Positions 2,079-27,472 of a DNA stretch of 64,000 bases are shown piece after piece. Numbering within the stretch: position 1 is the stretch's first letter; the number at the start of each line of letters is the position of its first letter. This DNA is from Flavobacteriia bacterium (lineage in GTDB: Bacteria > Bacteroidota > Bacteroidia > Flavobacteriales > Schleiferiaceae), in assembly GCA_013373425.1 (NCBI GenBank), contig JABXHW010000017.1, positions 1 to 64,000 on the forward strand, in the 5' to 3' direction. The notes below the pieces were generated by a model. It worked only from the letters and a program-made list of their open reading frames with translations, did not search any database and was not told the DNA's origin. The position numbers and the translations under genes are program-made.

Positions 2079-2085
2079 TATTGAA

Positions 2086-2162
2086 GGACAGAGGATTGAG
2101 GACCGGATAGCAACTTCTCACCTACCTGTGTACCTACATCTCTAGGCACCTGTGTACCTACA
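2086..2162. repeat. Degenerate phased short repeats
   Basis: Between the lipoprotein stop and the gyrB terminator. From 2120 to 2159 the sequence falls into five 8-bp units, most ending in CCT; the 15-mer starting at 2124 recurs exactly at 2148 (24 bp = three units). A weaker 7-bp series with GGA starts lies at 2086-2106. No coding potential. Confidence 0.6.
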
Positions 2163-2164
2163 AT

Positions 2165-2193
2165 CAAAAAACTCCCCCGATTTCTCGAGGGAG
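2165..2193 (-). terminator. Rho-independent terminator of gyrB
   Basis: On the minus strand, arms at 2185-2193 and 2172-2180 pair across a four-base loop (9 bp with a G-U pair), followed by a run of T residues. It lies about 30 bp past the gyrB stop. Confidence 0.85.
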
Positions 2194-2223
2194 CTTCAAA
2201 CTCAGTACCTATGTGATAGGTTA

Positions 2224-17365: not shown

Positions 17366-17391
17366 GTAGAGAAAGAAATAGAAACATGAGA

Positions 17392-17419
17392 AACCCTGCC
17401 AGAGATGGTGGGGTTTTTT
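17392..17419 (+). terminator. Terminator of the Omp28-like gene
   Basis: Arms AACCCTGCCA and TGGTGGGGTT pair with one mismatch across GAGA and run into a T tract. Confidence 0.8.
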
Positions 17420-17429
17420 GGTATGTGGG

Positions 17430-17485
17430 GACGTGCAGACGTAGGGGCGTGTGTGGCCGGGAGGTACTGGACGTGACGCCGTGTC
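17430..17485. repeat. Degenerate 8-bp phased repeat, GRCGTG type
   Basis: Seven consecutive 8-bp units start at 17430; four of them carry the core RCGTG at the same phase (17430, 17438, 17446, 17470) and a fifth CCGTG at 17478. It follows the terminator and has no convincing coding frame. Confidence 0.55.
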
Positions 17486-17538
17486 CTGTTTGTCGTACTA
17501 GGTTTGATTTGGAATCGTTTGCATTCTAAACAAGAAGC

Positions 17539-17898
17539 ATGAAAAAACAGATTCTATCACTCACAATGGGTTTGTGCACATTGGTTGCCTTTGCCCAAGA
17601 ACCTACCGGAGAGACCATTAAATACACTGCTGGAGATCAAATTGACGTGAGTTCTAATTCTGTCATTACACTAACTGGTGGAGTGACTATCTCCAATTTC
17701 CATAAGCTTGATAGCTTGGTTGCTGAAAGCGCCACCATCAACTTGGAAACTATGGAAGTACACGCAGATGGACTTGAATTTGTGAGATGGCGCTCCATTC
17801 CAGTGAATATCCATTCAGACCTCAACAACACACAGAAGAGCCCAAGTCTCGTCTATCTCGCCAAACAAGACGACGCCGAAGTAACCCTAGCCGAGTAA
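17539..17898 (+). CDS. Small secreted protein of unknown function
   Basis: 119 residues with a clear signal peptide (MKKQILSLTMGLCTLVAFAQ). The mature part has short repeated beta-like turns (SNSVITLTGGVTIS, ESATINLETMEVHADGLEFV) that recall the stacked strands of LptA/OstA-type folds, but I cannot assign that family with confidence. No cysteines in the mature part. Single gene between a repeat region and the yidC terminator. Confidence 0.7.
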   Translation: MKKQILSLTMGLCTLVAFAQEPTGETIKYTAGDQIDVSSNSVITLTGGVTISNFHKLDSLVAESATINLETMEVHADGLEFVRWRSIPVNIHSDLNNTQKSPSLVYLAKQDDAEVTLAE

Positions 17899-17913
17899 CC
17901 CACTCACTTCCCC

Positions 17914-17984
17914 ACCAGCCTACCAGCTCACCAGCTCACTAGGTTACCAGCCCACCAGCTTACCAGCTTACCAGCTCACCAGCC
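17914..17984. repeat. Nine tandem 8-bp ACCAGCTY units
   Basis: Units begin at 17914, 17922, 17930, 17938, 17946, 17954, 17962, 17970 and 17978 (last one 7 bp). Eight keep ACCAGC and the fourth is ACTAGGTT. It fills the gap between a gene stop and the shared terminator. Confidence 0.9.
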
Positions 17985-18019
17985 AAAAAAATAGCCCGGC
18001 ATCACCGGGCTATTTTTTT
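17985..18019. terminator. Bidirectional terminator (small secreted gene / yidC)
   Basis: AATAGCCCGG and CCGGGCTATT pair perfectly across five bases with A and T tracts on the two flanks, so it can stop transcription from both sides. The yidC stop codon touches it. Confidence 0.9.
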
Positions 18020-19793
18020 ACTTCATTCGACGCATACGTCGATTTCCGTCTTGATTCGCTTGCTGTTGTTGCTCCATGGCATCGCTTAAGCGCTTCTGGA
18101 ACTTATTCTGCTTCTTCGGCTTCTTCTTGTTTTCTTGAAGTTTAGCATGCAAGGCATCTTCATTGATGAAGGCGCGGATGGCATACTGCTGACCGAAGGT
18201 GATCAAGTTTGAAATCATGTAGTAATAAGACAGTGCTGCTGCGTAACTGTTGAAGAAGAACAACAACATGAAAGGCATGAAGTAAATGATGTACTTCAAT
18301 TGCGGCATCTGACTGTTTGATCCCGTCATCTGCTGGTTCATGTAAGAGTACATGAAGGTAGAAATGGCCATCAAGATTGTGAACAAACTCACGTGGTCAC
18401 CATAGAAAGGAATCGTGAATGGTAACGTCGCAATGCTATCGTAAGAAGATAGGTCTGTCGCCCACCAGAAGCTTTCCTGACGCAATTCAATCGAAGCAGG
18501 GAAGAATCGGAACATAGCGAAGAGAATCGGCAACTGTACCAACTGAGGGATACAACCACCGAGCGGATTCACTCCCGCTTTGCGGTAGAGCTCCATCGTG
18601 GCTTGCTGCTTCTTCAGAGGATCATCGTCCTTGTGTTTTTCGTTGATCTCTTCAATCTCAGGACGAAGAACTCTCATTTTCGCCATCGACTTGTAACTCT
18701 GGAAGGTCAATGGTGAAAGCGTAAGCTTAATCATTAAGGCCATCAATAGAATGATGAGACCGTAGTTCAATCCATAGCCATCGAGCCAGTTGAAGATACG
18801 AACCACTACTCCGCGTGAAATCCATCCAAAGATTCCCCAACCGAAGTCGATGATCTTATCGTAGCCCATGTCGTACTCCTTGAGGATATCGTACTTATTA
18901 GGGCCGAAGTACATGTTCATATCAACGGCGTACGTGCCATTGACCTCTTGTACATTCACGCGACTTTCGAATGCCTTGATGTATGGCCCAGACTCGTAAG
19001 GAGCAGATTTCATGCTCGCACTATCAAATCTACCTTCAGCAGTAATAATCGTAGAGAAGAACTGATCTTGGTGTGCCAACCAGCGAATGTCCATCGCTTC
19101 TTCGCTATCCACGCCATTCTCGCTGAGTGATTCGCGCTCATTATCGTCGATCTCCCAATAAGAGATTTGAGTCTTTCGCCCTTCGAGGTCTCTCGATTTC
19201 TCTTGTTGAATAGAATTCTGAACCCAATTGAAGCTCAGTGGAAGTGATTCACTCGCCTGACCAGAAACCACAAAGTCGGTTTGATACTCACCTTCCTTCA
19301 ACTCCCAGCGCAAAGAAAGCGGGCCATGAGGCGTAGATGTTGTGAGCTCTAAGCTGTAAGCTGTGCGCTCGGTAATGTCGAACCAAGCATCTTTAGAGTT
19401 CCAATTACCCAAACTAAAGTCGAGCGTCTGGCTGCTGTCTACAAGGCAGAGGTCGGTTGAATCCCAGCTCTTGTAATCCTTGAGTTGTGCTTTTACGATT
19501 TGAGCCCCTTTGTTGGTGAATTGAAGCTTGAGAACTTCATTTTCGATGGTGTAGAATTCTGCCTCGCGAACCATCGCTTGAGCTCCCGTATCTACACTGC
19601 TCGAATCAACAGCGGCTATTTCAGTAGGAGTGGTTGTTTCAGCTTCGGTAGCTTCATCAACAACTTGCTCCGTGTTTGTATTGGATGATTCAGTTGGCTC
19701 ATCCTTGCTCATAAACATGAAATAGAACAGAACGGCGGTAATTAGTAAAAAACCGATGATCTGGTTTCTATCCAGTGAGCTTCTATTTTCCAT
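18018..19793 (-). CDS. yidC: Membrane protein insertase YidC
   Basis: 591 residues. Inserts inner-membrane proteins alone or with SecYEG. One N-terminal span (IIGFLLITAVLFYFMF) is followed by a low-complexity linker and the large periplasmic beta domain of Gram-negative YidC, then the conserved insertase core (YGLNYGLIILLMALMIKL, the cytoplasmic hairpin with MAKMRVLRPEI, GGCIPQLVQLPIL and further spans). The lysine/arginine-rich tail, rich in glutamine, fits ribosome contact. It lies 10 bp after pyrG and is probably cotranscribed. Confidence 0.95.
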   Translation of the reverse strand: MENRSSLDRNQIIGFLLITAVLFYFMFMSKDEPTESSNTNTEQVVDEATEAETTTPTEIAAVDSSSVDTGAQAMVREAEFYTIENEVLKLQFTNKGAQIVKAQLKDYKSWDSTDLCLVDSSQTLDFSLGNWNSKDAWFDITERTAYSLELTTSTPHGPLSLRWELKEGEYQTDFVVSGQASESLPLSFNWVQNSIQQEKSRDLEGRKTQISYWEIDDNERESLSENGVDSEEAMDIRWLAHQDQFFSTIITAEGRFDSASMKSAPYESGPYIKAFESRVNVQEVNGTYAVDMNMYFGPNKYDILKEYDMGYDKIIDFGWGIFGWISRGVVVRIFNWLDGYGLNYGLIILLMALMIKLTLSPLTFQSYKSMAKMRVLRPEIEEINEKHKDDDPLKKQQATMELYRKAGVNPLGGCIPQLVQLPILFAMFRFFPASIELRQESFWWATDLSSYDSIATLPFTIPFYGDHVSLFTILMAISTFMYSYMNQQMTGSNSQMPQLKYIIYFMPFMLLFFFNSYAAALSYYYMISNLITFGQQYAIRAFINEDALHAKLQENKKKPKKQNKFQKRLSDAMEQQQQANQDGNRRMRRMK

Positions 19794-26354: not shown

Positions 26355-27286
26355 ATCTCGTAAATCGTTTAAAAGAATCCATCACTCCTGCCGTTGAGCG
26401 GGTGGAACGCATTACTAGCAAAATCATCCTTCCAGGCTTTGATGGCCTGAGTTTGTTTGATGTTGCTTCATTCTTTTTCAAAGGATTATTCGAAGGAGCA
26501 ATTACCACTAGAGCCGGATCGATTTCGTGGTCATTTTTTATTGCCATGTTCCCGGCCATTCTGTTTTTCTTCAGTTTGATTCCCTTTGTCCCAATTGAAG
26601 GATTTCAATCGGAGATTTTCCTCATTCTTGAGGACATTCTCCCTCCCAACACCTATGAGCTAGCGCGTACCACTATAGACGACATCTTAAACCACCGAAG
26701 GGGCGACCTCCTTTCTTTCACCTTCTTGGCAACGATATTCTTCGCAACCAACGGTACGATGTCCCTTATTTCAAATGTGAGCATCACTTTTCACGAGATT
26801 GATTCTCGCAGGTTTTGGCAGCAATACTTAGTAGCGCTCCTTCTCACAGTCGGACTAGGCATTCTCGTTCTCATTGCTGTCGCAGCCATTCTATTCGGCA
26901 CCAACTTAACCGAATGGCTGATCACAGAAAATTACCTGCCAGAATCGAGTGGCGCTATTATTCAAATCGCACGTTATCTCATCCTATTATTGGCTGTTCT
27001 GGTAGGCATGTCGCTTGTGTTCTACTACGGACCAACACGTAAAAAAGCGTGGGGGTTCTTCTCACCGGGCGCGGTCTTAGCAACCTTCCTCATTGTTGTC
27101 ACTTCCTTCGCCTTTGGGTTTTACGTGGATAACTTCAACAGCTACAACAAACTCTACGGCTCCATCGGCGGACTATTGGTCATTATGCTTTGGATCTACA
27201 TCAACTCAATTAGTGTGGTGGTTGGATTTGAGCTGAATGCGAGTATTGCCGGGGCGAAGAAAAGGAGGAGTAGTAGGGGTACTTAG
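26351..27286 (+). CDS. YihY/BrkB-family inner-membrane protein
   Basis: 311 residues with about six hydrophobic spans, starting at FFIAMFPAILFFFSLIPF. The family signature YGSIGGLLVIMLWIYI is near the C-terminus, followed by VVVGFELNA. YihY/BrkB proteins (once misnamed ribonuclease BN) are membrane proteins of uncertain function. The 4-bp overlap with nadC (ATGA) suggests coupled translation. Confidence 0.9.
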   Translation: MNLVNRLKESITPAVERVERITSKIILPGFDGLSLFDVASFFFKGLFEGAITTRAGSISWSFFIAMFPAILFFFSLIPFVPIEGFQSEIFLILEDILPPNTYELARTTIDDILNHRRGDLLSFTFLATIFFATNGTMSLISNVSITFHEIDSRRFWQQYLVALLLTVGLGILVLIAVAAILFGTNLTEWLITENYLPESSGAIIQIARYLILLLAVLVGMSLVFYYGPTRKKAWGFFSPGAVLATFLIVVTSFAFGFYVDNFNSYNKLYGSIGGLLVIMLWIYINSISVVVGFELNASIAGAKKRRSSRGT

Positions 27287-27472
27287 TACTGGGTACTGGG
27301 TACTGGGTACTGGGTACAACCTATCACAGCTAGAAGTGTGCTCTTCTAATGGGGAGAAATTGATCTGAACAAATACTGGATACTGGATACCCAATACTGG
27401 TAGCTGCGTACTTACGTGCATGTGCCCACATGCATACTTGCTCTCCTGCCCACCTGCGCTCCTGCGCTCCTC
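27280..27472. repeat. Cluster of 7-bp and 8-bp phased repeats with a palindrome
   Basis: Four exact TACTGGG units at 27287-27314 plus TAC, preceded by the related TACTTAG at 27280. A second series of TACTGGN units lies at 27374-27401. A palindrome TGCATGTG-cc-CACATGCA occupies 27417-27434, and 8-bp CTCCTGCG-type units run 27443-27472 up to the next gene end. The whole 188-bp gap between two convergent genes is made of this material; no gene is seen. Confidence 0.85.

Follow-up and report, generated by a model that had tools for sequence, protein, structure and literature searches.

The octamer array at 17914-17985 belongs to a recurring class of intergenic 7- and 8-bp repeat islands in this genome, built from a small set of words that return at many loci. 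The 8-bp members are most clearly located directly behind intrinsic terminators, where the sense strand is the G-rich one. These arrays are probably long simple-sequence repeats (LSSR) of the 5-11-nt type, grown by slippage past gene ends and copied between loci within the species. How short tandem words come to occupy many unlinked spacers within a single bacterial genome is a long-standing question, raised by the heptamers of cyanobacteria and Beggiatoaceae, and the post-terminator position together with the strand rule offers a measurable clue to mechanism.

We looked at the array within the window, the whole 64,000-nt stretch of DNA that was analysed. Its units run in the order ACCAGCCT ACCAGCTC ACCAGCTC ACTAGGTT ACCAGCCC ACCAGCTT ACCAGCTT ACCAGCTC ACCAGCCA without any indel; eight of the nine start with ACCAGC, five are exact ACCAGCTY, and the odd unit, ACTAGGTT, derives from a related word. 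Identity reaches 0.79 at lag 8 against 0.10-0.33 at the remaining lags below 16, and TRF reported both period 8 (8.9 copies, score 86) and period 24 (score 107). Within the spacer (17899-18017), the lag-7/8 score of 32.5 was reached by 0 of 10,000 dinucleotide shuffles, whose maximum was 14.5. Therefore, the nine phased copies with an 8-bp period that the first-pass annotation had seen after a gene stop are real, and as a tandem array longer than expected by chance they have the length of an LSSR of the 5-11-nt type. The array sits between the 3' ends of two genes (Table 1) and adjoins the A-run of a two-way terminator, which is common to yidC on the opposite strand. Reading from yidC, one meets the stop, the hairpin, the T-run and immediately [GGTGAGCT]n.

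Table 1. Coordinates of the repeat islands of the window and of their neighbours
Feature	Position	Strand	Remarks
Weak AGGTACAC-type series behind terminator, spacer after gyrB (2120 series)	2079..2223	-	Not above chance alone
G-rich, weakly 8-bp-phased GGACGTGC-type stretch behind terminator (17430 series)	17366..17500	+	Not above chance alone
ORF, 119 aa, no Pfam match	17539..17898	+	Stop at 17898, 16 bp ahead of octamer array
Octamer array	17914..17985	+	Nine units, ACCAGCTC family; reads as G-rich [GGTGAGCT]n from the yidC side
Two-way intrinsic terminator (A-run, GC hairpin, T-run)	17985..18019	.	From sequence; detected as terminator of the minus-strand gene ending at 18018
yidC (membrane protein insertase)	18018..19793	-	Pfam 60KD_IMP and YidC_periplas; converges on octamer array
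Left heptamer array [GTACTGG]n of E1	27279..27317	+	Begins at brkB stop codon
E1 copy (last heptamers, core, ATACTGG units, ACGTGC motif)	27304..27421	+	Model R1, 95.9 bits, E 2.9e-27
Right octamer array [TGCGCTCC]n	27439..27471	+	Adjoins stop of minus-strand DUF6263 gene

Three companion series in the window had been grouped with this array, and the grouping held in part. The series at 27280-27472 is strong, being matched by 0 of 2,000 shuffles, but those at 2120 and 17430 are individually not above chance, as their gapless lag-7/8 scores were reached by 134 and 324 of 2,000 shuffles, respectively. Both of the latter are located after a terminator, and the 17430 series is similar to a recurring octamer family.

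Spacer self-matching was measured against dinucleotide shuffles over 761 kb, in 61 stretches that include the window and cover about a quarter of the genome; 12 of the 61 are the window itself or were fetched for a repeat, and the remaining 49 (569 kb) make up the unbiased subset. Results showed excesses at lags 7, 8, 14, 16, 21 and 24, with lag 8 at the top (z = +13.9), and smaller excesses, for which we have no explanation, at lags 4-6 and 12. The unbiased subset gave z = +11.6 at lag 8, +6.3 at lag 7, +5.5 at lag 16, +6.7 at lag 21 and +4.4 at lag 24. The lag-8 enrichment over shuffled intergenic sequence on which the first-pass annotation had staked its recurring class of islands is thus present over this quarter of the genome. 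When 150 nt were trimmed from each end of the unbiased stretches, lag 8 retained z = +9.2 and lag 7 only +2.5, so that the heptamer signal is largely that of contig ends and of E1, a dispersed element described below. Intergenic arrays have a period of 7, 8, 14, 16 or 24 in 76 of 78 cases (41 of 43 in the unbiased subset), and arrays within ORFs show no peak at periods 7 or 8 or their multiples. The short-contig assembly of this genome frequently breaks at 7/8-bp arrays, which hold 20 of the 73 readable contig ends, or 17 of 66 when the ends of repeat-fetched stretches are left aside.

The proposal of a unit that merely differs between loci was not supported when the units themselves were compared. 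The 40 arrays of period 7 or 14 divide into a TACTGGG-related family of 35 and an ACCCGTT family of 5, and the 36 arrays of period 8, 16 or 24 contain families of 10, 6, 4 and 4 members, of ACCAGCTC, CTGCGTTC, TAGACTTA and GGACGTGC types, respectively. Units from different loci were at most one change apart in 459 of 772 heptamer pairs (null about 17-20) and in 56 of 621 octamer pairs (null about 5). Words are therefore common to loci far above chance rather than freely changing between them, and purely local slippage cannot be the whole story. Three tandem TACTGGG-type units occur at 49 places in this genome and in 0 of 59 relatives; two tandem ACCAGCTY units occur at 18 places here and in 3 of the 59 relatives, and are absent from both congeners. 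Across 84,980 species genomes, ACCAGCTC in three copies was found in 32 scattered stretches, so the word itself is not unique. Single perfect ACCAGCTC arrays were also seen in two further genera of the family (G003:C7:113207-113262 and G004:C13:14170-14193), by chance, old inheritance or transfer.

Few words at many loci and a species-private vocabulary would suit a telomerase-like reverse transcriptase that adds words at breaks from an RNA template. We regard this as extremely improbable, considering that the genome (96% complete) yields a single RVT_1 match, the reverse transcriptase of a type VI retron, and that, for 11 array units, the 3.5-kb neighbourhood of the retron holds no run longer than 9 nt of any of them. 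The retron itself lies at L223:1366-2786 (contig C44), where the reverse transcriptase, an HTH gene and a small protein match PADLOC RT_VI, HTH_VI and SP_VI.

All-against-all spacer comparison showed that the island at 27280-27472 is a copy of E1, an element of about 125 bp in total made up, in order, of [GTACTGG]n, a roughly 52-bp core, [ATACTGG]2-4, an ACGTGC-rich motif and, frequently, [CTGCGTTC]n. A sequence-only model found 30 full-length copies (at least 51 bits) and 51 rows at E <= 0.01 in this genome, and the same model found 0 copies in 17 relatives. The core has a mean identity of about 70% to the consensus and a near-constant length, and the adjoining heptamers, which flank it in direct and not inverted orientation, are nearly invariant; covarying pairs, palindromes and a conserved fold are absent from E1. 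With 30 homologous copies at unlinked sites, E1 has the copy number of a non-autonomous mobile element and demonstrates copying between loci directly. For the diverged core beside nearly invariant end heptamers, selection or repeated homogenisation fits as well as neutral copying, and it is possible that the arrays have a function.

We also observed a second dispersed sequence, E2, of about 220 bp, whose ends are GC-rich and roughly inverted around a AACGTTTAC core and which adjoins octamer arrays at L025:8957-9470, L028:13959-14505 and L107:9764-10245, with a similar sequence in L267 of the congener G002. Another spacer sequence, marked by long imperfect hairpins (CTTCGGAATC...), is repeated at L095:1450-1953 and L109:1-457, the two copies being 66% alike over 254 columns.

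The islands might be parts of non-autonomous mobile elements, with the E1 heptamers as putative protein-binding ends and the octamer arrays as remnants of cassettes such as E2. The homologous E1 copies with their conserved ends, their absence from the 17 relatives and the repetition of E2 between octamer arrays speak for this reading, which we nevertheless consider rather unlikely. The heptamers stand in direct orientation around the core, and neither target duplication, empty strain nor transposase was identified; the E1 island of the window had no match among phage or plasmid records. Moreover, the ACCAGCTC-family octamer arrays have no flank in common beyond the array sequence, the sole strong flank match among them coming from overlapping windows of one spacer. 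As they have no common flanking sequence, the octamer arrays would have spread without flanks, presumably as short arrays copied between loci in repair or recombination.

Both neighbours were seen for 17 E1 copies, and in 9 of these the flanking genes converge (p = 0.008 relative to the fraction of spacer bases in convergent spacers). This preference and the location of the islands past gene ends could also be those of BIME/REP-like sites for topoisomerase or another protein, absorbing supercoils at gene 3' ends; REPs are described, in a section of PMC3733652, as lying mostly between unidirectional and convergent ORFs and as gyrase targets. Such sites are a very improbable explanation here, since E1 has neither palindrome nor conserved fold, the binding is purely hypothetical, and one congener (G001) has no islands at the same spacers.

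The position of the 8-bp class was measured at gene ends. At least 40 nt of spacer follow 255 gene ends, and 46 of these have a detectable terminator with at least 30 nt beyond it; the next 60 nt were scored. Lag-8 self-match was 0.378, against 0.255-0.301 at the other lags from 4 to 12, and G-C skew was +0.213 (interval 0.107 to 0.318), with G exceeding C in 31 of 46 segments (p = 0.013). The unbiased subset (n = 30) gave a lag-8 match of 0.36, a skew of +0.242 (0.124 to 0.356) and G over C in 21 of 30 (p = 0.021). Elsewhere, the post-terminator lag-8 match was 0.260 in G001 (n = 18), 0.284 in G002 (n = 19) and 0.301 in eight other genomes (n = 50), and the skew intervals include zero in all of these.

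The strand rule rests on these post-terminator segments and not on the asymmetry of convergent spacers. In the full sample, where 12 of the 61 stretches are the window or repeat-fetched, arrays number 2.63 per kb in convergent, 0.83 in tandem and 0.42 in divergent spacers; in the 49 unbiased stretches the convergent preference is not significant (5/33 vs 10/144 spacers, p = 0.12), and it was dropped for arrays in general and retained for E1 only. In convergent spacers of the array sample, G exceeds C in 11 of 15 arrays of the left half and C exceeds G in 9 of 12 arrays of the right half (Fisher p = 0.016, the arrays not being independent). Each array is therefore C-rich for read-through from the opposite gene. 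Judged from sequence, the arrays could thus be candidate two-way fail-safe terminators, C-rich, G-poor and regularly spaced toward the neighbour's antisense strand, like Rho loading sites. The genome has rho, and rut sites, also treated in part of PMC11018626, are characterised in a portion of PMC6407284 as unstructured RNA, rich in C and poor in G, with cytosines at regular intervals. We hold this to be improbable, considering that the spacing given in the same portion of PMC6407284 is 11-13 nt over 78 nt, not 7-8, the period of the array being 8; that the asymmetry is weak across all convergent spacers of at least 60 bp (left G>C 21/43, right C>G 24/43); that the convergent over-representation fades in the unbiased subset; and that G001 has no arrays. 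Pairing between G-rich left arms and C-rich right arms was disfavoured by the absence of extra RNA structure: spacers with arrays folded no better (mean z -1.47, n = 24) than those without (-1.40, n = 94). An Rfam search on 6 sources returned nothing.

We also compared the same spacers in the two congeners. The brkB/DUF6263 spacer measures 188 bp with E1 in this genome and about 130 bp with a terminator and without E1 in G001, which is too distant for a boundary to be read; in G002 it exceeds 1 kb and contains E2-like sequence and a [CCAACCCT]n array behind the terminator. Past yidC, G002 has an array of a different word, [GAGGCAA]n, 7 bp long and G-rich in sense, ahead of the terminator, and G001 has no array. 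Two tandem copies of CCAACCCT occur at 36 places in G002 and in 0 of the other 36 genomes searched, this genome included. Lag excesses are present in G002 (z = +4.8 at lag 7, +6.1 at lag 8 and +4.1 at lag 16), with nothing comparable in G001 (+2.6 at lag 7, +1.3 at lag 8). A few words are alike here and in G002 (TAGACTTA/AGTCTATA type); AGTCYATA in two copies, expected in both genomes, was found in G002 only. Thus, the main words differ between species of one genus, and at two spacers in three species they turn over. As the same spacers carry different words in two congeners and none in the third, gains, spread and losses can be put in order and tested, and the islands, whose words differ between related species at the same gaps, are well suited to tests of repeat growth and spread. 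In G001, which is without 7/8-bp islands, we also noticed a 23-bp tandem repeat of five copies in a spacer (L129:6615-6729).

One locus bears on array growth. A ACCAGCTC array with one and the same flank stands at the end of contig C57, with about 2.5 copies of the unit, and at the start of contig C54, with at least 6.9, and the last 56 nt of C57 are present in C54. This suggests two array lengths in the sequenced sample, although with one pair of contig ends an assembly artefact is possible. Slippage-driven growth, as first proposed, gains some support from this apparent whole-unit length change, but as local slippage alone it fails on the shared words. Slippage accounts for tandem growth, phase and length change; left unexplained by slippage alone are the 7/8-bp unit, hardly ever 5 or 6, the G-rich sense strand and the shared words, and for the last of these copying between loci is needed. 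Loss of mismatch repair as the cause of the arrays was ruled out by the presence of MutS in this genome and in 4 of 4 relatives searched.

What slippage leaves unexplained could point to a process at transcription ends that writes and rewrites G-rich sense words after terminators. The words would have a fixed length of 7-8 bp and come from a small species-private vocabulary, with a ruler provided by the transcription machinery and not by ordinary slippage. The 8-bp ruler could, for instance, lie in how long the RNA-DNA hybrid is or in synthesis primed by R-loops; the latter, we would guess, fits the strand rule. We find this reading unlikely and favour LSSR growth with copying between loci. 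Whole units would be gained and lost by replication slippage in untranslated DNA, for which the two-length locus provides support, and arrays accumulate past gene ends; a few unit families recur genome-wide, partly within the E1 cassette, whose copies are homologous.

Degenerate heptamers located in many spacers are also known from the STRR of heterocystous cyanobacteria, whose spread is unexplained. The likeness lies in such heptamers across many spacers; octamers, among them the unit of the 17914-17985 array, and the post-terminator position are added here, with no cyanobacterial link. In a search for such repeats in spacers of Bacteroidetes or in the family of the host, whose partial coverage does not imply absence from print, only PMC4679880 came close. 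The portion of PMC4679880 concerned with the TAACTGA heptamer reports direct repeats in marine Beggiatoaceae, some Cyanobacteria and five Bacteroidetes, with long arrays in some Bacteroidetes and shorter spacers without repeats in relatives. One heptamer is thus repeated across many intergenic sites there as well, but it is a single word, mostly just upstream of start codons, whereas here other words lie past gene ends; two copies of TAACTGA were found at 0 of 271 loci. The islands resemble REP/BIME in having many lineage-specific intergenic copies, mostly past gene 3' ends, and differ in being direct repeats, with E1 free of any conserved hairpin, REPs being 20-40-bp palindromes as defined in a passage of PMC3733652. 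The closest likeness is to LSSR of the 5-11-nt type (Mrazek et al. 2007, as summarised in part of PMC4679880), tandem arrays of 5-11-nt units in scattered lineages in which heptamers are prominent and slippage has been proposed. Unlike these, the arrays of this genome use units of 7 and 8 only, draw on few words common to dozens of loci, follow a strand rule after terminators and have one family carried by a dispersed cassette.
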